From Halobium salinum (GTDB lineage Archaea > Halobacteriota > Halobacteria > Halobacteriales > Haloferacaceae): DNA of 64,000 bases. The stretch is from contig NZ_JAODIW010000005.1 of NCBI RefSeq assembly GCF_026586625.1, positions 124,001 through 188,000 on the forward strand. Direction: 5' to 3'. Both the position numbers and the translations under genes were made by a program. A model generated the notes under the pieces. That model ran no database searches and was not told the DNA's origin. It worked only from the letters and a program-made list of their open reading frames with translations. Below are positions 742 to 26,989 of this stretch, piece after piece. The number at the start of each line of letters is the position of its first letter. The stretch's first letter is position 1.

Positions 742-1905
742 ATGCCACCGACTATCACGTCCGTGGAGGCGTTCGCGTTCACCTACGACCGGGAGCACGT
801 CCGGAGTCAGACGGTCGGGCCGCTGGTGTACGCCGAGGGGGAGACGGCCGAGCTGACGGGGTACGCCGTCCGAATCGACACCGACTCCGGGGTCACCGGG
901 GAGTTCGTCGGCGGGACGGCCTCGGGCCACGCGCAGATAGCCGAGGTGGCCCCCTACCTGGTCGGGGAGAACCCGCTCGACCGGGAGCGCCACTGGTCCG
1001 AACTGAAACGGGCGCTGCGCGCCACCGACCGGATGGGGCTCGGGCCGCTGGACATCGCGCTGTGGGACCTCGCCGGCGAGCGCTACGACGCGCCGGTTCA
1101 CGAGCTACTCGGCACGTACCGCGACCGACTGCCGGCGTACGCCTCGACGTACTTCGGTGACGCCGACGCGGCGGGGCTCGACACGCCGGCGGCCTACGCC
1201 GACTACGCCGAGGCCTGTCGCGACGCCGGCTTCCCTGCGTTCAAGGTTCACCCCGTCGAGGGCGGCGACGTCGACCGGGACGTCGCGACGGTTCACGCCG
1301 TCGCGGACGCGGTCGGCGACGACCTCGACCTGATGCTCGACCCCGTCTGCGGGTACGGGACGTTCGCCGAGGCGCTCGCGGTCGGGCGGGCCTGTGACGA
1401 GTGCGGCTTCTACTGGTACGAGGACCCCTACCGCGACGCAGGCACCTCGGCTCACGGCCACGGGGCGCTCAGAGACCGCCTCGACACCCCGCTGCTGCAG
1501 GCGGAGATGATTCGAGGGGTGGAGGCCCACACCGACTTCGTCGACGCCGGCGCGACCGACTTCGTCCGCGCCGACCCGGTCTGGGACGGGGGCATCACGG
1601 GTGCGATGAAGATCGCCCGCGTCGCCGAGGGCCACGGGCTCGACGTGGAGTACCACCTCGCCGGCCCGCACACCCGCCACTGCATGGCCGCCACCCGCAA
1701 CGCGAACTACTACGAACTCGGCCTGGTCGGCCCGGAGGCGTCGGTACCCCACTCCGAGCCGCCGGTGTACGATTCGTACACGGACGGGGTCGACGCGCTC
1801 GACGGCGACGGGACGGTACCGGTCCCCGACGGGCCGGGGCTCGGCGTCGACTACGACTGGGCGTACATCGAGGACAACGCGACCGACGTCGTCGTCGCCG
1901 AGTGA
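742..1905 (+). CDS. Enolase-superfamily (mandelate racemase/muconate lactonizing) sugar-acid dehydratase
   Basis: The 387-residue protein has the two-domain enolase-superfamily layout: a capping domain (residues 1-125) and a TIM barrel. The metal ligands are in place (D200 in LMLDPV, E227 in WYEDPY, E255 in QAEM), and a K-x-H (168-170) stands where the catalytic K-x-K usually lies on barrel strand 2. A WHLAGPH-like histidine region is seen near residues 303-312. Members dehydrate aldonates or epimerise alpha-hydroxy acids. The substrate is not readable; L-rhamnonate, L-fuconate or a pentonate would fit the neighbourhood. The ATG at 742 is chosen because the upstream in-frame extension lacks family similarity. 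Confidence 0.78.
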   Translation: MPPTITSVEAFAFTYDREHVRSQTVGPLVYAEGETAELTGYAVRIDTDSGVTGEFVGGTASGHAQIAEVAPYLVGENPLDRERHWSELKRALRATDRMGLGPLDIALWDLAGERYDAPVHELLGTYRDRLPAYASTYFGDADAAGLDTPAAYADYAEACRDAGFPAFKVHPVEGGDVDRDVATVHAVADAVGDDLDLMLDPVCGYGTFAEALAVGRACDECGFYWYEDPYRDAGTSAHGHGALRDRLDTPLLQAEMIRGVEAHTDFVDAGATDFVRADPVWDGGITGAMKIARVAEGHGLDVEYHLAGPHTRHCMAATRNANYYELGLVGPEASVPHSEPPVYDSYTDGVDALDGDGTVPVPDGPGLGVDYDWAYIEDNATDVVVAE

Positions 1906-4163: not shown

Positions 4164-5405
4164 ATGCCCGACTACCGGAAGCTACGCGACCCGAACGCCG
4201 AGTACACCATGCGCGACCTCTCGGGAGAGACGATGGGGCTGGAGGCCGACCGCGGCGGCCCCCGCGACGTCGAGATAACCGACGTGCAGACCACGATGGT
4301 CGACGGCAACTACCCCTGGATTCTCGTGCGCGTCTACACCGACGCCGGAATCGTCGGCACCGGCGAGTCCTACTGGGGCGGCGGCGACGCCGAGATTATC
4401 GACCGCATGACACCCTTCCTCGTCGGCGAGAACCCCCTCGACATCGACCGTCTGTTCGAGCATCTCATCCAGAAGATGTCCGGCGAGGGCTCCATCTCCG
4501 GGAAGGTCGTCTCCGGCATCTCCGGCATCGAGATCGCCCTCCACGACGCCGCCGGCAAGATTCTCGACGTCCCGGCCTACCAACTCGTCGGCGGGAAGTA
4601 CCGCGACGAGGTCCGCATGTACTGTGACTGTCACGCCGGCGACGAGTCCGAACCCGCGTCGAACGCCCGCGAGGCCGAGCGCGTCGTCGAGGAGTTGGGG
4701 TACGACGCGCTGAAGTTCGACCTCGACGTTCCGTCGGGCCACGAGAAGGACCGCGCCAACCGCCACCTCCGAGGGCCGGAGGTACAACACAAGGTCGACA
4801 TCGTGGAGGCGGTCTGTGAGGCGGTCGGCGACCGTGCGGACGTCGCCTTCGACTGCCACTGGTCGTTCTCGGGCGGGAGCGCGAAACGGCTCGCGGCCGG
4901 TATCGAGGAGTACGACGTCTGGTGGCTCGAAGACCCCGTCCCGCCGGAGAACCACGACGTCCAGCGCGAGGTGACCCAGTCGGCGCCGACGACGCCGGTC
5001 ACGGTCGGCGAGAACGTCTACCGCAAACACGGCCACCGGCGACTGTTCGAGGAACAGGCCGTCGACATCGTCGCGCCGGACCTGCCCCGAGTCGGCGGGA
5101 TGCGCGAGACGCGGAAGATCGCGGACATGGCCGACACCTACTACGTCCCCGTCGCGATGCACAACGTCTCCTCGCCCATCGGGACGATGGCCTCCGCGCA
5201 GGTGGCGGCGGCCATCCCGAACTCGCTGGCCGTCGAGTACCACTCCTACCAGCTCGGCTGGTGGGAGGACCTCGTCGAGGAGGACGACCTCATCGAGGAC
5301 GGCCGGATGGAGATTCCCGAGAAGCCGGGACTGGGTCTCACGCTGAATCTGGACGCCGTCGAAGAGCACATGGTCGAAGGGGAGACGCTGTTCGACGAGG
5401 CGTAG
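4164..5405 (+). CDS. Enolase-superfamily sugar-acid dehydratase (gluconate/galactonate dehydratase-like)
   Basis: A 413-residue enolase-superfamily protein with an N-terminal capping domain and a TIM barrel. Likely metal and catalytic residues are D230 and H232 in AFDCHW, E256 in WLEDPV and E283 in VGENVY, with a late MHNVSSPIG motif carrying the general-acid histidine near residue 329. K184 in LKFD stands in the strand-2 lysine position. The family converts aldonates such as gluconate, galactonate or xylonate into 2-keto-3-deoxy acids. The start at 4164 gives a 40-residue N-terminal extension before the domain; the internal ATG at 4209 is an alternative. Exact substrate is open. Confidence 0.78.
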   Translation: MPDYRKLRDPNAEYTMRDLSGETMGLEADRGGPRDVEITDVQTTMVDGNYPWILVRVYTDAGIVGTGESYWGGGDAEIIDRMTPFLVGENPLDIDRLFEHLIQKMSGEGSISGKVVSGISGIEIALHDAAGKILDVPAYQLVGGKYRDEVRMYCDCHAGDESEPASNAREAERVVEELGYDALKFDLDVPSGHEKDRANRHLRGPEVQHKVDIVEAVCEAVGDRADVAFDCHWSFSGGSAKRLAAGIEEYDVWWLEDPVPPENHDVQREVTQSAPTTPVTVGENVYRKHGHRRLFEEQAVDIVAPDLPRVGGMRETRKIADMADTYYVPVAMHNVSSPIGTMASAQVAAAIPNSLAVEYHSYQLGWWEDLVEEDDLIEDGRMEIPEKPGLGLTLNLDAVEEHMVEGETLFDEA

Positions 5406-6604: not shown

Positions 6605-7114
6605 ATGTCAGCCACACGTATCGCCGAGTTCGGCGAGTCGCTGGAGGCCCACGGGGTCTCGTGGGCACGCACCGACGCCGACGGGTTCGCATCGACGCTA
6701 GTCGAGTCGCTCGTCGAACCGGCCGTCGGCGTCCCGCTCGGCTACGAAGGGGTGTCGCTCGACGATGCACCGGTGACGGTCGACCCGACGCCCGCGGAGC
6801 TACGCGCGGCGACGACGGGCGTCACCCCCGTCAGACTGGGCGTCGCCGCCTACGGGAGCTTCCTCGTCGACTCTGACGCGAAGGGGTCCGAGCCGGTGAG
6901 CCTCTACCCCGAGCGCCACGTCGCCGTCGTCCGCGGGAGCGACCTCGTCGCCGACCTCCCGGCGGCGCTCGACGAGTTGGGGGCGTCGTACGCGGCGGAG
7001 CCGTCGAGCGCGGTGTTCGCTACCGGGCCGAGCGCGACCGGCGACATGGGCGCACTCGTCGAAGGAGTCCACGGGCCGAAGCACGTCCACGCGGTCGTGC
7101 TGGAGGACCGGTAG
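6605..7114 (+). CDS. lutC: LutC, lactate utilisation LUD-domain protein
   Basis: A 169-residue LUD-domain protein. The fold is recognised by AAYGSFLVDSD (about residues 79-89), the SLYPERHVAVV strand and the C-terminal EGVHGPKHVHAVVLE ending typical of LutC. In bacteria LutABC together oxidise L-lactate to pyruvate through an iron-sulfur complex. It is immediately followed, with no gap, by the LutB-LutA fusion at 7115, so the two are almost certainly co-transcribed and form one complex. The pair would remove lactate produced from lactaldehyde in deoxysugar breakdown (inference). Confidence 0.85.
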   Translation: MSATRIAEFGESLEAHGVSWARTDADGFASTLVESLVEPAVGVPLGYEGVSLDDAPVTVDPTPAELRAATTGVTPVRLGVAAYGSFLVDSDAKGSEPVSLYPERHVAVVRGSDLVADLPAALDELGASYAAEPSSAVFATGPSATGDMGALVEGVHGPKHVHAVVLEDR

Positions 7115-9337
7115 ATGGCCGTCGACGACCCCACGGAGAAGGCGGCCCACATCCGCCACCTGCTCGCGACCGAGCGCGAGGCGGTCCGGGAGAACACGAG
7201 CCACTTCAACCGCGAGCGCTACCGCGCGTCGGCCGAGTACGAGGGGTACGAGGAGCTCAGGAGCCGGGCGCGGGAGATCAAGGAGGACGCCATCGAGCGC
7301 CTGCCGGAACTGGTCGAGACGGTCCGCGAGTCGGTCGAGGCGAACGGCGGGACGGTGTACGTCGCCGACGACGCCGCGGACGCGAACCGCTACGTCGAGG
7401 AGGTCGTCCGGGACCAAGGCGACACGGTCGTGAAGTCGAAGTCGATGACGACCGAGGAGATCGACCTCAACGAGGCCCTGGAGGCGGCGGGCGCCGACGT
7501 GTACGAGACGGACCTCGGCGAGTTCGTCGTGCAGGTCGCCGACGAGGCGCCCTCACACATCGTCGGCCCCTCGCTGCACAAGTCAAGCGACGACATCGCG
7601 GCGCTGTTCAACGCCCACTTCGACCCGGAGGAGCCGCTCTCGACCGCCGAGGAGCTCACCGAGTTCGCCCGCGACTACCTCGGCGACCGTATCGTCGAGG
7701 CCGACGTGGGGGTCACGGGCGCGAACTTCGTGCTCGCCGAGTCGGGGACCATCACCCTCGTCACGAACGAGGGGAACGCCCGGAAGGTGGCGGCGACGCC
7801 GGACACGCACGTCGCCGTCGCCGGGATAGAGAAGCTCCTCCCCTCTATCGAGGAGCTGGGGCCGTTCACCGAACTCATCGCCCGCGCCGCGACCGGTCAG
7901 GACGTCCCGCAGTACCTCTCGATGCTCACGCCGCCCTCCGACTCCCCCTCGCTCGACTTCGACGACCCCACCACGCCGCTGTCCGAGCAGGGAAGCGAGA
8001 ATCGGGAGTTCCACCTCGTTCTCCTCGACAACGGCCGGACGGCGATGCGCGACGACCCCGAACTGCGGGAGACGCTGTACTGTATCCGCTGTGGCGCCTG
8101 CGCGAACTCCTGTGCGAACTTCCAGCAGGTGGGCGGCCACGCCTTCGGCGGGGAGACCTACACCGGCGGCATCGCCACCGGCTGGGAGGCCGGCGTCGAG
8201 GGCCTCGACACCGCCGCCGAGTTCAACGACCTCTGTACGGGCTGTTCGCGCTGCGTGAACGCCTGCCCCGTCGAGATCGACATCCCGTGGATAAACACGG
8301 TCGTCCGTGACCGCGTGAACAGGAACGGCGACGAGGGGCAGTTCGACCACCTCGTCGAGGGGCTCACGCCCGACGCGGAGCCGGGCGGGATGGACCTCGG
8401 CAAGCGCTTCTTCGGCAACTTCGAGACGGCGGCGAAGCTGGGGAGCGCGACGGCTCCGCTGTCGAACTGGCTCGCGAAGTCGGGGCCGGTTCGTGCGGGC
8501 ATGGAGCGTGCCCTGGGAATCGACCGCCGGCGCGACCTCCCCCGGTTCGAGCGGGAGACGTTCCGCGACTGGTTCGAGGCCCGCGGCGGCGCGCTGGTCT
8601 CCGCCGACGAGGCGACCCGCGAGGCGGTGGTGTACCCCGACCTCTACACGAACTACGTCCGGCCGGAGCGCGGGCGCGCCGCCGTCCGGGTACTGGAGGC
8701 GCTCTCGGTCCGCGTGCAGGTGCCGGACGTCCCCTCCAGTGGCCGGGCGCCCCTCTCGCAGGGGATGGTCGCCACCGCCGACGCGAAGGCCAGCCGGGTG
8801 TTCGGCGCGCTCGCGGAGCACCTCGACGCCGGCCGCGACGTCGTCGTGGTCGAGCCGAGCGACCTCGCCATGTTCCGCCGGGAGTACGAGAAGTTCCTCC
8901 CCGAGGCCTCCCACGAACGCCTGTCGGAGAACAGCTACGAGGTCGTCGAGTACGTGTTCGGCCTACTGGAGAACGGCGGGGACGCCGAGGCGCTCGCGGG
9001 ACCGGACGCCGACGACCCGGGCGTCGCCTACCACAGCCACTGCCAGCAGCGGACGCTCGGTGCCGCCGCTCACACCGAGGCGGTGCTCGACCGACTGGGG
9101 TACGACGTCGTCCTCTCGGAGGCCGAGTGCTGCGGGATGGCCGGCAGCTTCGGCTACAAGCGCGACTACTACGAGCTCAGCATGGCCGTCGGCGAGGAGC
9201 TGGCGACGGAGTTCGGCGGCGCCCACGAGGGGCGACGGGTCGTCGCCAGCGGGACCTCCTGTCTCGACCAGCTGGACGACCTCCTCGAACGGAAGCCGGC
9301 ACACCCGGTCGAACTGCTCGACCCGGCGCGGCGGTGA
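7115..9337 (+). CDS. Fused LutB-LutA iron-sulfur lactate oxidation protein
   Basis: This 740-residue protein joins two subunits that are separate in bacteria. Residues 60-300 form a LUD domain; two [4Fe-4S] motifs follow (C323, C326, C329, C333 and C374, C377, C380, C384), as in LutB; the C-terminal third carries one clear CCG element (ECCGMAGSFGY near residue 672) preceded by HSHCQQR, as in the cysteine-rich LutA/GlpC domain. It would pass electrons from L-lactate to a quinone or other acceptor at the cytoplasmic face of the membrane. The ATG directly abuts the lutC stop codon. The fused architecture is visible in the sequence; substrate is inferred from family. Confidence 0.83.
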   Translation: MAVDDPTEKAAHIRHLLATEREAVRENTSHFNRERYRASAEYEGYEELRSRAREIKEDAIERLPELVETVRESVEANGGTVYVADDAADANRYVEEVVRDQGDTVVKSKSMTTEEIDLNEALEAAGADVYETDLGEFVVQVADEAPSHIVGPSLHKSSDDIAALFNAHFDPEEPLSTAEELTEFARDYLGDRIVEADVGVTGANFVLAESGTITLVTNEGNARKVAATPDTHVAVAGIEKLLPSIEELGPFTELIARAATGQDVPQYLSMLTPPSDSPSLDFDDPTTPLSEQGSENREFHLVLLDNGRTAMRDDPELRETLYCIRCGACANSCANFQQVGGHAFGGETYTGGIATGWEAGVEGLDTAAEFNDLCTGCSRCVNACPVEIDIPWINTVVRDRVNRNGDEGQFDHLVEGLTPDAEPGGMDLGKRFFGNFETAAKLGSATAPLSNWLAKSGPVRAGMERALGIDRRRDLPRFERETFRDWFEARGGALVSADEATREAVVYPDLYTNYVRPERGRAAVRVLEALSVRVQVPDVPSSGRAPLSQGMVATADAKASRVFGALAEHLDAGRDVVVVEPSDLAMFRREYEKFLPEASHERLSENSYEVVEYVFGLLENGGDAEALAGPDADDPGVAYHSHCQQRTLGAAAHTEAVLDRLGYDVVLSEAECCGMAGSFGYKRDYYELSMAVGEELATEFGGAHEGRRVVASGTSCLDQLDDLLERKPAHPVELLDPARR

Positions 9338-20373: not shown

Positions 20374-21693
20374 TCAGCCCTCGAACCCGAACGCGAAGTC
20401 GCCGTCGCCGTCGAACGCCATCTCCCGACGCTCCCCCACCTCGACGTCGTCGCGCTGCGCCAGTTCGTCGGCGACGGGCTCGGAGACGTACAGTTCGTCC
20501 GGGTGGAGCGTACTCCGGATGTACCCGATGCGGAGGTCCTCGGGGTCGCGAACGCCCGTAATCGAGTACGCGAGCAGCAGCGCGGTCCGGTCGCTCGGCG
20601 AGACGATAGGGACGAACGCGCGGGAGGGCTCGCCGCTCGTCACGGCGTTCACGTAGGTGTCCGAGAGGTTCAGCTGGGCGACGAGGTCCTCGTGGACGAA
20701 GTCGGCGAGCCCCATCCCGATGCCGTTGCCGTGGGAGGCGTCGGTGACGTCCCGGACGTAGATGCGCGTGATGTCGGGCAGGGCTGGCTCCTCCTCGTCG
20801 AGGAACTGGTAGCGACCGACGACGTTGGTGTCCATCCCGGTGCCGGAGACGTCCTTCCCGATCTCGTCGACGACCAGCAGGTCGAGGTGGTCGACCGGAA
20901 GTTCGCCGAACAGCTCCTTCGAGCGCGCGAGCAGTTCGGGCTCGCGGTCGGGAATCTCCCCGACCGGGACGCCCTCGACGAGCGCGGCGCGGTCGTTCGC
21001 GTTCTCGACGAGGGCGATGCCGCCGACGACGGGGGCGTGCTCGAAGATGGCGTCGGCGCGCTCCTGAATCACGGTGTCGAGGCCGCGGGAGATGGCGGCG
21101 TTGTGCATCTCCTCGGCGCCGCGCTGCTTGCCGAGGCCGACGACGGTCATCTTCGTCAGCCCGGACTCCACCTCGTTGCGGAAGTCGGTGTGGAGCTTCA
21201 CGCGGTTGGCGACGAGCACGGCGTCGGCCTCAAGCGCGACCGTCGACACCGGAATCGGACGCCCCTCGGGGTCGTCGGCGACGGACTCGACGGCCATCGA
21301 GTCGCGTATCTCACAGCCCAGCCGTTCCTCGGTGATGCCGTACTCCTCGAGGACACCACGCTGGCCCTCGGGCGTCGCGCCGCCGTGGCTCCCCATCGCC
21401 GGCATGACGAACGGCTTCAGGCCGCGCTCGGAGAGCTCGGCGACGGCCGCCTCGACGAGTTCGGGCATGTCGTGGATGCCGCGGCTGCCGGCCGTGACGG
21501 CCACTTCGGCGCCCTCGTCGAGGTCCGAGAGGGCGGGAATCTCCGCGACCGCGTCGCGCGTCGCCGCGGAGACGTCGTCGACTCGCGGCGGGTCGCGGTG
21601 GCGCTCGGCGTGGGCGAGGCGCGGGAAGTCGTCGATGCCGACGTCGTTGACGTCCGCGAGCGTCTCGGCGTCGGGTACGTCGAGTTCGACCAT
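20374..21693 (-). CDS. LarA-like (DUF2088) protein, lactate racemase superfamily
   Basis: The 439-residue protein has the DUF2088 N-terminal domain (TAGSRGIHDMPELVEAAV near residues 66-83; AMGSHGGATPEGQRGVLE near 99-116) and the NRVKLHTDFRNEVESGLTKM segment where LarA-type proteins hold active-site residues. LarA is a nickel-pincer lactate racemase; relatives epimerise other 2-hydroxy acids. This branch also carries IGKDVSGTGMDTN and SHGNGIGMGLADF, seen in a widespread uncharacterised LarA subgroup. No LarB, LarC or LarE genes are in the window. It is divergent from the KARI-like gene at 21845. The start uses the ATG at 21691-21693. Confidence 0.7.
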   Translation of the reverse strand: MVELDVPDAETLADVNDVGIDDFPRLAHAERHRDPPRVDDVSAATRDAVAEIPALSDLDEGAEVAVTAGSRGIHDMPELVEAAVAELSERGLKPFVMPAMGSHGGATPEGQRGVLEEYGITEERLGCEIRDSMAVESVADDPEGRPIPVSTVALEADAVLVANRVKLHTDFRNEVESGLTKMTVVGLGKQRGAEEMHNAAISRGLDTVIQERADAIFEHAPVVGGIALVENANDRAALVEGVPVGEIPDREPELLARSKELFGELPVDHLDLLVVDEIGKDVSGTGMDTNVVGRYQFLDEEEPALPDITRIYVRDVTDASHGNGIGMGLADFVHEDLVAQLNLSDTYVNAVTSGEPSRAFVPIVSPSDRTALLLAYSITGVRDPEDLRIGYIRSTLHPDELYVSEPVADELAQRDDVEVGERREMAFDGDGDFAFGFEG

Positions 21694-21844
21694 GAGAGTG
21701 GGTCGCAGGCGCGGCCGCTTAGTTCTGTCTCCGGCAGCGTGTCTCGCCTCCCTGGTCCGGCCCGCCCGAGCGAGCGCACGGTGAGTCTTGCCGAACCGGG
21801 CCGAGTCGAGCAAACGCTTAGTCGGTCGCCGTACATCGTCGGGC

Positions 21845-22882
21845 ATGGAGCCGACGGACGACAGCGAAGACAGCGACGCGGCCGAGACGACGGCGACCGT
21901 CTACCACGAGAGCGACGCGAGCCTGGACCCGCTGGACGGCAGGACGATAGCCGTCCTCGGCTACGGGAACCAGGGCCGCTCACAGGCGCTGAACATGCGC
22001 GACGAGGGGCTCGACGTCGTGGTCGGGAACCGCGCGGACGACTCCCGGGAGCGGGCTCGTGAGGACGGGTTCGACGCCTACCCCATGGCCGAGGCGACGG
22101 CCCGGGCGGACATCGTGCTCTTTCTCGTCCCCGACGAGGTCCAGCCCGAGGTGTACGAACGGACGGTCGGACCGAATCTCGACGCCGGCGACACGCTCGT
22201 GTTCGCCTCCGGCTACAACGTCACGTACGACTACATCGAGGTCGACCCCGCGGTCGACGTCGTGCTGGTCGCCCCGCGCATGATCGGGGCGGTCGTCCGC
22301 GAACTGTACGAGGAGGGCCGGGGCGCCCCCGCGCTGCTTGCCGTCCACCGGGACGCCACGGGCGAGGCGAAAGCCCGGGCGCTCGCGATTGCGGCCGGAA
22401 TCGGGAGCATGCGTTCGGGCGTCGTCGAGACCGACTTCGAGACGGAGACGCGCACGGACCTCCTGAGCGAGCAGGGGCTCTTTCCGGTGTTCGCCGCCGC
22501 ACTGCTCGCCCGTTTCGAAGTGGAGTCCGAGGCGGGCGTCCCGCCCGAGGTGACGCTGCTCGAGTCGTACCTCTCCCGCGAGATGGCCCACATCTTCGAG
22601 AAGTGCGCGACCGAGGGGCTGATCGGACAGATGGACCTCCACTCGCGGACGAGCCAGTACGGCCAGTTACTCGGGCTGGAGGCGTTCGACCGCGAGCCGA
22701 TTCGCGAGTTCATGCGCGAGCGACTCGAAGCCATCGACTCCGGGGCGTTCGCCGAGGAGTGGACCAGAGAGCAGGAGTCCGAGGACTCCCGTCTGGAACG
22801 CCTCCGCCGGCGGTACGAGGGGAGCGAGTTCGTCGAGACCGAGCAGGCGACGCTCGACGCGTTCGGGCTCCGGGAGACGTAA
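21845..22882 (+). CDS. Ketol-acid reductoisomerase (IlvC)-like protein, divergent paralogue
   Basis: A 345-residue protein with the KARI N-terminal Rossmann motif (AVLGYGNQGRSQALN), LLPDEVQP-like FLVPDEVQPEVYE, VAPRMIGAVVR and RGAPALLAVH, then the knotted all-alpha domain with FETETRTDLLSEQ, which keeps the magnesium-binding Asp and Glu. The usual SISNTAEYG is replaced by HSRTSQYG, so the substrate pocket has changed. Authentic IlvC makes dihydroxy acids for branched amino acids; here, with no ilvBHD genes nearby and amid sugar-acid genes, a related isomeroreductase reaction on a sugar acid seems likelier (inference). The ATG at 21845 follows a TATA-like CGCTTAGTC at about 21815-21823. Confidence 0.75.
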   Translation: MEPTDDSEDSDAAETTATVYHESDASLDPLDGRTIAVLGYGNQGRSQALNMRDEGLDVVVGNRADDSRERAREDGFDAYPMAEATARADIVLFLVPDEVQPEVYERTVGPNLDAGDTLVFASGYNVTYDYIEVDPAVDVVLVAPRMIGAVVRELYEEGRGAPALLAVHRDATGEAKARALAIAAGIGSMRSGVVETDFETETRTDLLSEQGLFPVFAAALLARFEVESEAGVPPEVTLLESYLSREMAHIFEKCATEGLIGQMDLHSRTSQYGQLLGLEAFDREPIREFMRERLEAIDSGAFAEEWTREQESEDSRLERLRRRYEGSEFVETEQATLDAFGLRET

Positions 22883-23024: not shown

Positions 23025-23237
23025 ATGGACATCACCGACACGAACGATATCGAGTTGTCGCGGGGCGAGGCGCAGACGGTCGTCGCGGCGCTGGCGGAGT
23101 ACGAGACCACCGCCCAGGGGACCGAGGAGGAGTCGGTCGTCTCAATTCGACGCCGCTTCGAGGAGGAGTACGACCTCGGCGGCGGGGACGACGGGGACGG
23201 CGACGACGGGACGCCGACGTCGTCGCGCCCGACCTGA
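23025..23237 (+). CDS. Small acidic hypothetical protein
   Basis: A 70-residue ORF starting MDITDTNDIELSRGEAQ. It contains a helical, Ala/Glu-rich middle (QTVVAALAEYE) and a basic patch (SIRRRFEEEYDL), then a glycine/aspartate-rich disordered tail. The codon usage and acidity are like real haloarchaeal proteins, and the frame is open from an upstream ATG at 22929, which I judge less likely. I do not recognise the family. It ends at the first of two GAGGCGAGTCACGA direct repeats. Confidence 0.45.
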   Translation: MDITDTNDIELSRGEAQTVVAALAEYETTAQGTEEESVVSIRRRFEEEYDLGGGDDGDGDDGTPTSSRPT

Positions 23238-23406: not shown

Positions 23407-24420
23407 ATGTCACACCACGCGGGTGTCGATCTCCGGGGGCTGTACGAGCGGGCCCGGGAGGGCGGCTACGGATTCTTCGCCAGCAACGTCACCCACTTCG
23501 ACGTGCTCGTCGGCCTGCTCCGGGGGAGCGACCGCGCCGACTCGGACCTCGTCGTTCAGCTCGGACGCGAGGAGGCGGCGTTCTTCGGCGACGGCGACCC
23601 GGCGGTCGGAATCCGCGTCTTCGGCGGCTGTCTCGACGCCTTCGCGGCGCGCTTCGACGTCGAAGTCTTCTGCAACGTCGACCACGTCCACCTCCCCGAG
23701 GACGACGACTTCCTGACGGCGTGTCTCGACTCGGGCGTCCCCGACTCGGTGATGGTCGACGCCTCCGCCGAGCCGTTCGAGCGCAACGTCGAACTCACCC
23801 GGGAGGCCGTCGAGCGCGCCGACGAGGCGGTGCTCGTCGAGGCCGAGTTGGGCCGCATCGCCGGCGTCGAGGGGAGCACGGAGACGCCGGACGACGAGGC
23901 GTTCTACACCGACCCGGACGACGCCGTCGAGTTCGTCGAGCGGACGGGCTGTGACCTCCTCGCGGTGTCGGTCGGCACCCAGCACGGCGTCGCCTCCGGG
24001 CGCGACCTCGACGTTCGGCCGGACATCGCGGCCGACATCGGGCGGGCGCTCGCCGACGCCGGGGTGGACGCGTTTCTCGTCGTCCACGGCGCCTCGGGGC
24101 TCGCGGACGAGCAGTTGGCGGCGCTCCTCGACGCGGGCGTCGTCAAGTTCAACAAGAACACCCGGTACCAGTACGAGTACGCGCGGACCGCCGCGGACTT
24201 CTATCACGAACACGCCGACGCGGTCCGACCCCCCGACGGCGTCGCCGACGACCGGGCGAGCTTCTTCGCCGGCAGCGACTGGGCGCCTGACAAGACGTAC
24301 TTCCACCCGCACGTCGTCTCGAACGCGGCCCGGGACCGAATCGCCGACGTGATGACCGGGCTGTGCGAACTCACCGGGAGCGCCGGCGAGTCGCTTCGGT
24401 CGAACCGAGCGAACCGATGA
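23407..24420 (+). CDS. Class II (ketose-bisphosphate type) aldolase
   Basis: A 337-residue class II aldolase. The zinc site is shown by NVDHVHLP (about 95-102), GTQHGVAS (near 188) and VVHGASGL (near 219), and KFNKNT carries the substrate-binding Asn. The standard FbaA/GatY/KbaY fold is complete, but spacing differs from housekeeping FBP aldolase. Its stop codon overlaps the next ATG (ATGA), so it is translationally coupled to the FGGY kinase, which suggests it cleaves the phosphorylated product of that kinase to dihydroxyacetone phosphate plus a smaller aldehyde or ketone. Confidence 0.82.
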   Translation: MSHHAGVDLRGLYERAREGGYGFFASNVTHFDVLVGLLRGSDRADSDLVVQLGREEAAFFGDGDPAVGIRVFGGCLDAFAARFDVEVFCNVDHVHLPEDDDFLTACLDSGVPDSVMVDASAEPFERNVELTREAVERADEAVLVEAELGRIAGVEGSTETPDDEAFYTDPDDAVEFVERTGCDLLAVSVGTQHGVASGRDLDVRPDIAADIGRALADAGVDAFLVVHGASGLADEQLAALLDAGVVKFNKNTRYQYEYARTAADFYHEHADAVRPPDGVADDRASFFAGSDWAPDKTYFHPHVVSNAARDRIADVMTGLCELTGSAGESLRSNRANR

Positions 24421-25961
24421 CGGGCGACGTGCTCGTCGGCATCGACGCCGGACTCACCAACGTCACGGTGGCCGCTTACGACACCGATGGGACCGAACTC
24501 GCGGCCGCGTCGCGGTCGACGCCGGGGTCGAATCCCGCCACGGAACCCGACGGGACGGCCGGCGAGTCGGCCGACCGCGAGGAGCAGGACCACGACCGCC
24601 TGTGGGCGGTCGTCGCGGAGACCGTCGCGGCGGTCGTCGGGAGCGACGACGTTCCGACCGACGCGGTCGCCGGCGTCGGCGTCGCCGGCCACGGTCACGG
24701 TCTCTACGGGGTGGACGCGGCGGGCGAGCCGGTCTGTGGAATCAAGTCCACCGATAGCCGGGCGCTCGACGCCCTCGACGAACACTGTACCGAGGTGGGC
24801 CGCGAGCGCGCCGTCGACCGCCTCGGCTGGGAGCCGTTCGGGGCAGACCCGCTGAGCCTCCTCGTGTGGCTTCGGGCCAACGAGCCGGCGACGTACGACC
24901 GCCTCGACACGCTCCTGTTCTGCAAGGACGTGCTGACCCACCGCCTCACCGGCGAACGTGGCACGGACCCGACCGAGGGGAGCGTCTTCTACGGTCCCGA
25001 CGCCGAGTACGACCGGGAGGCGTTCGACGCGCTCGGCGTCGAGGCGGCGTTCGACGCGTTGCCGCCGGTCGTCCCCAGCACCGAGTCCTGCGGGGCGGTG
25101 ACGGCCGAGGCCGCGGCCGACACCGGGCTCCCCGAGGGGACCCCCGTCGCCGCCGGGCTACAGGACGTCGGCGCCTGCACCTTCGGCGCGGGACTCGTCG
25201 AGCCGGGCGACGGGCTCGCCATCCTCGGGACGTGGGGCCAGAGCGTCGCGGTGCTCGACTCGCCGGCCGACGGCGAGGGCGGCCTCCCCCGTCGATACCT
25301 CGACGGCTGGTACCGGTATCGGGGAATCAGGGCGGGGGCGGCCTGCGTCGACTGGTTCGTCGAGCAGTGCGGCGGCGACTGGCGTCGGGAGGCAAAGAAG
25401 CGCGACGTCGACCCCTACGAGGTGTACGAGGAAGCGGTCGCCGGGGTCGACCCGGGCGCGGAGGGGCTCGTCTTCCACCCGTTTCTGCAGGGGTCGACGG
25501 ACGCCCCGAACAGCGCCGGCGGGTTCTACGGGCTCCGGCTCTCGCACACGAGCGCGCACATGCTGCGAGCCATCTACGAGGGGGTCGCCATCACCCAAGC
25601 GGGTGCGCTCGACACCCTCGCACCCGATATCGGGACGATTCGACTGACCGGCGGGGGCGCACAGAGCGACGCCTGGTCGGGACTGTTCGCCGACGTCGCC
25701 GACACCCCGGTGACGGTCCCGGACGCGCGTGAGACCGGCGCGCTCGGGGCGGCGCTGTGCGGGGGAACGGCCGCGGGCGTCTACCCGGACGCGGCGACGG
25801 CGGTCGAGCGGGCGGTCGGGACCGCCCGGTCGTACGAGCCGAACCCGGCGGCGGCCGCCGCCTACCGACGCGTCTCCGAAGCGTTCGACCAGGCCGCCGA
25901 CGGGATGGAAGCCCCCTGGGAAACGCTCAAGGCGTTCAGGCGGGAGGGTCGAAGCGGATGA
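24417..25961 (+). CDS. FGGY-family carbohydrate kinase
   Basis: The 514-residue kinase opens with VGIDAGLTNVTVAAYD, the phosphate-1 ATPase motif of the FGGY family, has GVAGHGHGLYGVD and a late LTGGGAQSDAWSGLFADV with the adenosine motif. Family members phosphorylate ketoses such as xylulose, ribulose, fuculose or apulose. A low-complexity acidic insert (residues 38-60) is likely surface. The gene overlaps its neighbours by 4 bp on both sides (ATGA at 24417 and at 25958). Which ketose is used cannot be read from sequence. Confidence 0.85.
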   Translation: MTGDVLVGIDAGLTNVTVAAYDTDGTELAAASRSTPGSNPATEPDGTAGESADREEQDHDRLWAVVAETVAAVVGSDDVPTDAVAGVGVAGHGHGLYGVDAAGEPVCGIKSTDSRALDALDEHCTEVGRERAVDRLGWEPFGADPLSLLVWLRANEPATYDRLDTLLFCKDVLTHRLTGERGTDPTEGSVFYGPDAEYDREAFDALGVEAAFDALPPVVPSTESCGAVTAEAAADTGLPEGTPVAAGLQDVGACTFGAGLVEPGDGLAILGTWGQSVAVLDSPADGEGGLPRRYLDGWYRYRGIRAGAACVDWFVEQCGGDWRREAKKRDVDPYEVYEEAVAGVDPGAEGLVFHPFLQGSTDAPNSAGGFYGLRLSHTSAHMLRAIYEGVAITQAGALDTLAPDIGTIRLTGGGAQSDAWSGLFADVADTPVTVPDARETGALGAALCGGTAAGVYPDAATAVERAVGTARSYEPNPAAAAAYRRVSEAFDQAADGMEAPWETLKAFRREGRSG

Positions 25962-26989
25962 AGGTACTACTCTGCGGGGACCCACAACAGCCGAGCGAGT
26001 ACATGTACGAGGCGCTTGGGCGGCTCGAGGAGCGGGGCGTGACGTTCGACCGGATGGACTGGATGGGCGACGCCTCGCCCGCCGAGTTCCGGAACGTGAC
26101 GATGGACATGGAGTCGGCCGGACCGGGGAGCTACGACACCGACGCCATCGCCGCGAAGCTCGACGGGGCCGACGCGCTGGTCGTCCACAAGGCGCCCGTC
26201 TCCCGGGAGCTCATCGAGGGGGCGGACTCGCTCGAAGTCGTCGCCGCCGCCCGCGGCGGCACCGAGAACGTCGACGTCGAGGCCGCCGCGGACAACGGCG
26301 TCACCGTACTCCACGCGCCGGGACGCAACCGCGACGCCGTCGCCGACTACGCCGTCTCGATGCTGCTCTCGCGGCTGCGGGAGATTCCGTTCAACCACGC
26401 GGAGCTCTCCTCGGGGGAGTGGAGCCAGGTGTTCGACCCCGACCGGCTCCCGCCGGACGTCCGGACGACGACGGTCGGAATCGTCGGCTTCGGCCACATC
26501 GGGCGGGGGGTCGCCCGCCGGCTCGCCGGGTTCGAGCCCGAGATTCTGGCGTACGACCCGTTCGTCGACGACGAGGATGTCCGCGAACTGGGCCCGGAGC
26601 CGGCCGACCTGGAGACCCTGCTGGCGGAGTCCGACGCCGTGACGCTCCACGTTCGCCTCTCGAGCGACACGGAGGGGATGATGGGCCGCGAGGAGTTCGA
26701 GCGGATGAAACCCTCGGCGTACCTGATCAACACCGCCCGGGGCGGCCTCGTCGACGAGGCGGCCCTGGTCGAGGCGCTCGAGGACGGCGAGCTCGGCGGC
26801 GCGGCGCTGGACGTGTTCCGGGAGGAGCCGCTGCCCGCGGACCACCCGCTGTTCGACCGCGACGAGGTCGTCCTGACCCCGCACGTCGCCGGGTCGACCC
26901 GGGACGCGGTGCTCGGCGGGCCCCGCATCATCGCCGCCCAACTCGACGACTACATCGACGGCGAGACGCCCGAACACGTCGTCGGGTGA
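25958..26989 (+). CDS. D-isomer-specific 2-hydroxyacid dehydrogenase family protein
   Basis: A 343-residue two-domain dehydrogenase: the Rossmann motif GIVGFGHIGRGVARRL (about 170-185), the RGG arginine in INTARGGLVDE, and a late TPHVAGST with the catalytic histidine. The closest recognisable types are phosphoglycerate-, glyoxylate- and erythronate-like dehydrogenases. It is the third gene of the ATGA-coupled trio with aldolase and kinase and could oxidise or reduce the hydroxy acid formed there. Direction and substrate are inferred. Confidence 0.83.
   Translation: MKVLLCGDPQQPSEYMYEALGRLEERGVTFDRMDWMGDASPAEFRNVTMDMESAGPGSYDTDAIAAKLDGADALVVHKAPVSRELIEGADSLEVVAAARGGTENVDVEAAADNGVTVLHAPGRNRDAVADYAVSMLLSRLREIPFNHAELSSGEWSQVFDPDRLPPDVRTTTVGIVGFGHIGRGVARRLAGFEPEILAYDPFVDDEDVRELGPEPADLETLLAESDAVTLHVRLSSDTEGMMGREEFERMKPSAYLINTARGGLVDEAALVEALEDGELGGAALDVFREEPLPADHPLFDRDEVVLTPHVAGSTRDAVLGGPRIIAAQLDDYIDGETPEHVVG

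Follow-up and report, generated by a model that had tools for sequence, protein, structure and literature searches.

Why should a homologue of ketol-acid reductoisomerase (KARI, EC 1.1.1.86), a standard branched amino-acid enzyme, lie back to back with the gene of a LarA-like isomerase among genes of sugar metabolism? The question is raised by a locus of the haloarchaeon Halobium salinum, which we analyzed in a window of 64,000 nucleotides, bases 124001-188000 of a 428-kb contig (NZ_JAODIW010000005.1, here C10) of a 4.46-Mb genome (G000). A preliminary description of the window had proposed that the two proteins act in turn, an epimerization followed by a reductoisomerization, together with a neighboring trio of sugar genes. 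We find that the reductoisomerase homologue, here named KARI2, represents a genuine and recurrent KARI subfamily of haloarchaeal acid-sugar clusters. In a few salt-loving archaea it has probably been reused for the breakdown of a sugar acid, possibly a branched one. Its link to the LarA-like protein, a member of nickel-pincer isomerase group 22, is defensible; the specific pathway proposed earlier is partly supported, as one among several possibilities.

Both genes are real, as judged by domain or family models and fold, and occupy the following positions:

20374..21693, minus strand: 439-aa protein of the LarA superfamily (NCBIfam nickel-pincer isomerase group 22; NF052515, fold)
21694..21844, no strand: intergenic spacer of 151 bp that separates the start codons of the divergent LarA-like and KARI2 genes
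21845..22882, plus strand: KARI2, KARI paralogue, 345 aa, ATG at 21845 (Pfam, NCBIfam, alignment)
KARI2 motifs by start residue: FASGYN (120), APRMIG (143), DLLSEQ (205), LLESYLSRE (238), HSRTSQYG (266)

Identity and distribution of KARI2

KARI2 is a member of the KARI superfamily by its domains and by its fold. It scores 206 bits against Pfam KARI_N and 85 bits against KARI_C, its strong family matches are to KARI models only, and the 50 best PDB matches to its AlphaFold model (pLDDT 81, weak at about residues 243-267) all belong to the KARI family, BurG among them. The match to TIGR00465 (ilvC) reaches 268 bits, above the cut-off of 226, and that to NF004017/PRK05479 reaches 287 bits, below the cut-off of 336; automatic annotation of such proteins as IlvC is likely. 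The intergenic region 21694..21844 holds no match to a sigma-70-type promoter, searched with a tool that does not cover archaeal promoters.

That KARI2 might be the only IlvC of its host is rejected by a genome search, which recovered a second KARI, 42% identical to KARI2, on contig C2. This is the canonical ilvC, in a cluster ilvB-ilvN-ilvC-leuC-leuD-leuB with leuA upstream. Its product scores 538 bits against PRK05479 (cut-off 336), and ilvB scores 681 bits against TIGR00118; ilvN, leuD and leuB were named from position and sequence. KARI2 is thus a diverged paralogue. At a threshold of at least 366 bits it is present in 15 of 391 Halobacteria genomes, representing 8 genera and three families (52-88% identity), followed after a drop to 248 bits by canonical IlvC, which nearly all genomes have. 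A canonical IlvC match accompanies KARI2 in every genome except G303, whose assembly is 90% complete and split into 150 contigs. Within the phylum sample KARI2 was not found outside class Halobacteria (588 vs 332 bits); a scan of named genome contigs placed relatives in Halobellus salinus and Haloprofundus marisrubri. In a tree that does not include BurG, the KARI2 clade stands apart from IlvC with 100/100 support. The 15 KARI2 neighborhoods (~20 kb each, one of 11 kb) contain no homologues of ilvB, ilvN, leuA or leuD, and the only weak matches, a tartrate/isopropylmalate-dehydrogenase relative and an aconitase relative, lie ~8 kb or more from KARI2. The lack of branched amino-acid genes pointed out at the window therefore holds at all other KARI2 loci as well.

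Active site of KARI2

Motifs were aligned with those of canonical KARIs from haloarchaea, methanogens and crenarchaea. With the canonical class I enzyme, KARI2 shares the fold, the Rossmann motif GYGNQG, the serine of SxxTAEYG and the four metal ligands D, E, E, E, which are retained in the aligned KARI2 members. The corresponding Mg ligands of Sac-KARI are Asp191, Glu195, Glu227 and Glu231 (PMC5940873). The cofactor and magnesium motifs are thus present, as had been claimed, with a cofactor loop that is one residue shorter (GNRADD-SRERA vs GLREDSSSRSAA), possibly indicating a relaxed NADPH preference. The altered segment HSRTSQYG is also confirmed: its counterpart in the canonical KARI from the same genome is VSDTAEYG, equal in length, and the replacement of SxxTAEYG by HSxTSQYG extends to all KARI2 members.

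Besides the shorter loop, three changes had been missed by the preliminary description. The motif PKxPG/APKxPGH has become APRMxG (Lys to Arg) in 14 of the 14 tabulated KARI2 proteins, AHGFN has become ASGYN (His to Ser) in the clade of the window protein, and two residues are inserted between the two C-terminal metal-ligand glutamates. The histidine change is less uniform: SGYN or SGFN occurs in 10 of the 14, and the histidine is kept (HGYN/SHGYN) at four loci, L051-L054. In canonical KARI, the lysine of PKxPG and the histidine of HGFN are catalytic. As far as the alignment allows, KARI2 is therefore an enzyme without the catalytic lysine of IlvC, and usually without the histidine, yet with its metal ligands intact. 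These replacements, the PRK05479 score below the cut-off and the location away from ilv/leu genes distinguish it from canonical IlvC.

Two characterized or solved relatives are relevant for comparison. The 'Putative ketol-acid reductoisomerase 2' of Saccharolobus (Sulfolobus) solfataricus (Sso-KARI; PDB 6JCV, 6JCZ, 6JD2) falls into the KARI2 clade with 100/100 support, is 43-45% identical to the window protein and has in common with KARI2 the ASGYN and APRMxG motifs, the two-residue insertion and HSxTSQYG. It differs in coming from a thermoacidophile, in sitting on a long branch and in its deposition as a KARI rather than as a protein of sugar metabolism; the PDB titles name Mg2+ as a ligand, in part together with NADPH and another compound. 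BurG of Burkholderia is a KARI-derived cyclopropanol synthase, a paralogue beside an intact ilvC that forms a separate clade and performs a new reaction (PMC9359912). As a KARI paralogue in a genome with intact ilvC, BurG provides a proven precedent for neofunctionalization of a KARI, although it serves a natural-product pathway in another gene context and is 37% identical to KARI2 in the fold alignment.

The LarA-like protein

The LarA-like gene starts best at 21693, since a longer frame of 490 aa would enter the divergent intergenic region. Its product scores 486 bits against NF052515, 'NPN_iso_grp_22' (cut-off 400). The Pfam scan gave only a sub-threshold match to DUF362, and the LarA name therefore rests on the NCBIfam model and the fold. 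Sequence searches of the PDB returned no match, even with a profile, so we turned to fold comparison: at E<=0.001 the structure model (pLDDT 84.5) is matched by 18 PDB structures, LarA-family proteins without exception, with modest TM-scores of 0.39-0.55. By model and fold, then, the protein is a member of the LarA superfamily. It shares with group 22 a set of histidines and lysines, His103, His168, Lys181, His197 and Lys280, that are invariant among 24 homologues. By motif and spacing these five appear to resemble LarA His108, His174, Lys184, His200 and Lys298, which would make His103 and His168 the candidate catalytic pair.

The LarA-like gene had been described as lacking maturation genes. 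This is correct locally, but not for the genome, where larB (C11:316329), larC (C11:1054460) and larE (C11:293513) all score above cut-off on contig C11; an orphan LarA without cofactor genes is thereby rejected. Two further LarA-type genes lie on contig C10.

Group 22 orthologues (at least 470 bits) occur in ~46 of the 391 Halobacteria genomes. Among 32 such loci, a PdxA-family gene is found within seven genes in 19, and a DUF1537 (SBD_N + NBD_C) kinase in 18. In G237, whose LarA is the closest outside an island shared with one other genome, the gene directly adjoins a DUF1537 kinase on the same strand. In a second recurrent context, DapA-type genes are found together with MR/MLE dehydratases and an HpaI aldolase. 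Four-carbon acid sugars are the substrates of DUF1537 kinases (PMC10971088), and the neighbors of group 22 in other haloarchaea thereby recall the threonate/erythronate pathways of DUF1537 kinase and PdxA2; in the window, by contrast, these genes are not adjacent, and two such modules lie elsewhere on C10. From these neighbors, the kinase substrates and the MR/MLE-type context, we predict that group 22 epimerizes C2 of tetronate-type acids. We know of no characterized member of the group.

Recurrence of the pair in other genomes

KARI2 and LarA group 22 lie within ~2.5 kb of each other in five genomes from four genera, and in three arrangements. In the window and in G323 the two genes are divergent; in G322 a stress-protein gene intervenes, and in G216 and G060 DapA-type and GntP genes do. 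For comparison, two unrelated genes would fall at most 5 kb apart by chance at a rate of ~0.003 per genome. Seven of the 15 KARI2 genomes also carry LarA group 22, where 1.8 would be expected (Fisher p=6e-4), and at the level of genera the count is 5 of 8 (p=0.012). The pair thus recurs in genera other than that of the window.

The wider surroundings of KARI2 are mostly acid-sugar genes, some of them named from sequence reading only. A DUF1537 kinase and PdxA are found near KARI2 in G030, G048, G216 and G060, an MR/MLE dehydratase in G030, G048 and G322, and an HpaI aldolase in G322, G303 and G355; G226 contributes a permease, a sugar ABC transporter and an alpha-L-rhamnosidase. The sugar cluster described around the window genes is accordingly best characterized as a setting of acid-sugar catabolism.

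Proposed function and competing explanations

The best explanation available to us, to which we give an even chance, is that the locus belongs to an island of acid-sugar catabolism and joins a neofunctionalized KARI, KARI2, to a C2-epimerase of the nickel-pincer type. Read from gene context, the route might run as follows. LarB, LarC and LarE, encoded elsewhere in the genome, would make the nickel-pincer cofactor, on which LarA group 22 would invert C2 of its substrate by proton-coupled hydride transfer; this substrate would be a 2,3-dihydroxy acid resembling erythronate or threonate, or a branched counterpart of these. In KARI2, two Mg2+ ions would hold a 2,3-dihydroxy acid (or a 2-hydroxy-3-oxo acid), on which the enzyme would carry out KARI-type chemistry with NAD(P)(H). 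The reaction would probably be oxidation at C2 with migration of the C3 substituent, that is, KARI run backwards, or else a simple oxidation or reduction, and the product would pass to kinase/aldolase or dehydratase/aldolase steps. Among LarA homologues, one racemizes 2,3-dihydroxyisovalerate, the product of canonical KARI, albeit weakly, and several epimerize 4-deoxy-tetronates (PMC11770544); a relay between LarA and KARI on 2,3-dihydroxy acids is therefore chemically sound. For LarA, the catabolism of linear four-carbon acid sugars is a stronger context than that of branched sugar acids. A search of the literature accessible to us returned no report of KARI paralogues in haloarchaeal sugar clusters, of Sso-KARI or of reverse-KARI sugar catabolism in archaea, and on apiose use by haloarchaea it returned one passing co-mention only.

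Several observations weigh against this explanation. The window and G323 represent one shared island and not independent cases, and the co-occurrence statistics carry no correction for phylogeny. Four KARI2 genomes of a single genus (G019, G022, G082, G100) have no LarA match at E<=1e-40, and no sugar cluster is recognized around KARI2 in any of the five genomes of that genus. Sso-KARI reportedly has ordinary KARI activity, so the KARI2 proteins, too, may act as general KARIs. Since KARI2 occurs without LarA in those four genomes, and most group 22 genomes are without KARI2, the two do not form an obligatory couple. The earlier route of epimerization and reductoisomerization can accordingly not be the obligatory one.

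The same figures bear on the reading in which KARI2 and its LarA-like neighbor have no functional connection and LarA serves linear tetronates only. Group 22 genes stand mostly beside DUF1537 kinase and PdxA, with no KARI2 at hand, which speaks for this reading, as do the four genomes with KARI2 alone. Proximity in four genera and three gene orders, set against the low chance rate, argues against it, and we regard it as somewhat unlikely.

Alternatively, KARI2 might have given up carbon migration and act as a Mg-dependent 2-hydroxy-acid dehydrogenase or 2-keto-acid reductase for sugar acids. Replacement of the PKxPG lysine and the AHGFN histidine alongside unchanged Rossmann and metal residues is consistent with this, and the remodeled KARI BurG likewise puts its redox capability to a different reaction (PMC9359912). 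The exchange of Lys for Arg is conservative, however, and present in the Sulfolobus member too, and the histidine persists at loci L051-L054. We consider such a dehydrogenase unlikely; loss of migration with redox activity kept is about as likely as reverse KARI on apionate.

The latter reaction would make KARI2 an oxidoisomerase of the D-apionate type. For the bacterial D-apionate oxidoisomerase ApnO, the reaction would amount to KARI in reverse with a branched sugar acid as substrate, and KARI2 would be non-homologous or distant to this enzyme. LarA group 22 would racemize C2 of apionate, and KARI2 would then form 3-oxo-isoapionate: apionate is 2,3-dihydroxyisovalerate with two additional hydroxyls, so reverse KARI would yield this compound. 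Its 4-phosphate is an established intermediate in the bacterial breakdown of apiose (Carter 2018, as cited in PMC6302742), and in two genera DUF1537 kinases lie close to KARI2, as would suit such a route. On the other side, no apiose-specific gene was recognized, and DUF1537/PdxA genes near LarA are usual without KARI2. The RuBisCO-like branch of apiose catabolism is rejected for the window's genome, which contains no RuBisCO-fold protein. A D-apionate-type assignment appears improbable, and slightly more so in its fully specified form, an archaeal oxidoisomerase of apionate-type branched acids that works by reverse KARI in series with a nickel-pincer apionate/tetronate C2-epimerase.

In a further reading, KARI2 would be a spare KARI of ordinary catalysis, an isozyme that serves branched amino-acid synthesis under other conditions, and its place in sugar islands would be due to chance. 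Its TIGR00465 score above the cut-off, the PDB titles of its only solved close relative and the reported KARI activity of that relative would agree with this, but the reading seems doubtful in view of the canonical IlvC match in all KARI2 genomes but G303, the absence of acetolactate synthase, ilvN and leuA near any of the 15 genes, and the catalytic Lys-to-Arg change in all members and His-to-Ser change in most.

The likelihoods given to these readings overlap with that of the neofunctionalized KARI paired with a C2-epimerase, because the apionate reading is a special case of it and the dehydrogenase reading is compatible with a catabolic role. If it is true, archaea have turned an enzyme of branched amino-acid metabolism to the degradation of sugar acids, and a role is suggested for Sso-KARI-2, a solved protein whose name is merely 'putative'. 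It would also caution against automatic annotation of KARI2 as 'IlvC', and would supply LarA group 22 with a concrete, testable substrate class, the four-carbon acid sugars.

Other genes of the window and the wider island

The remaining features of the window considered here are:

742..1905, plus strand: MR/MLE (enolase superfamily) protein of acid-sugar dehydratase type; homologues flank KARI2 in two other genera (L043/L044, L045)
4164..5405, plus strand: second MR/MLE protein, galactonate/gluconate dehydratase-like; homologues near KARI2 in L045 and L054
9371..10309, minus strand: DapA/KDG-aldolase-type protein; relatives adjoin LarA group 22 in other genomes
23025-23237: acidic ORF of 70 aa between KARI2 and the aldolase, without Pfam match
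23407..24420, plus strand: class II (fructose-bisphosphate-type) aldolase, first gene of the trio (NF041368, 550 bits)
24417..25961, plus strand: FGGY-family sugar kinase, second gene of the trio
25958..26989, plus strand: D-2-hydroxyacid dehydrogenase, third gene of the trio

The aldolase, kinase and dehydrogenase form a separate three-gene operon, a conserved module of its own that recurs at 21 further loci. It had been drawn into one pathway with KARI2 and LarA, a proposal that its distribution does not support: in 20 of 22 other loci examined the trio lies away from KARI2. An obligatory role in a KARI2 pathway is therefore not supported, although the trio does co-occur with LarA group 22 and, in 6 of 15 genomes, with KARI2. 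Its D-2-hydroxyacid dehydrogenase is found in 25 of the 391 Halobacteria genomes, 21 of which also have a close group 22 gene, usually not adjacent to the operon.

Elsewhere in the window, positions 2010-2978 encode a relative of UxuA-type mannonate dehydratase of just 322 aa, whose best-matching part is the C-terminal half. Positions 6605-9337 hold a LutC/LutB-like pair (LUD domains and an iron-sulfur protein; oxidation of lactate or other 2-hydroxy acids) that is conserved near LarA/KARI2 in other genomes. The window overlaps a dense acid-sugar island at ~60-290 kb of C10, with three LarA-type genes, two modules of DUF1537 kinase and PdxA, and many MR/MLE-like dehydratases. Divergent TCP-1/cpn60-type chaperonin-like proteins, often two and of ~440-565 aa, recur in haloarchaeal sugar-acid clusters, where their genes adjoin ABC transporters and SDR genes. 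They are found at C10:94630-97993 of the window's genome (L114/L115), L053:7570-9267, L054:3981-5675 and L151:5932-9192; one representative scores 330 bits against Cpn60_TCP1, and the others were connected to this representative or named from sequence similarity only.

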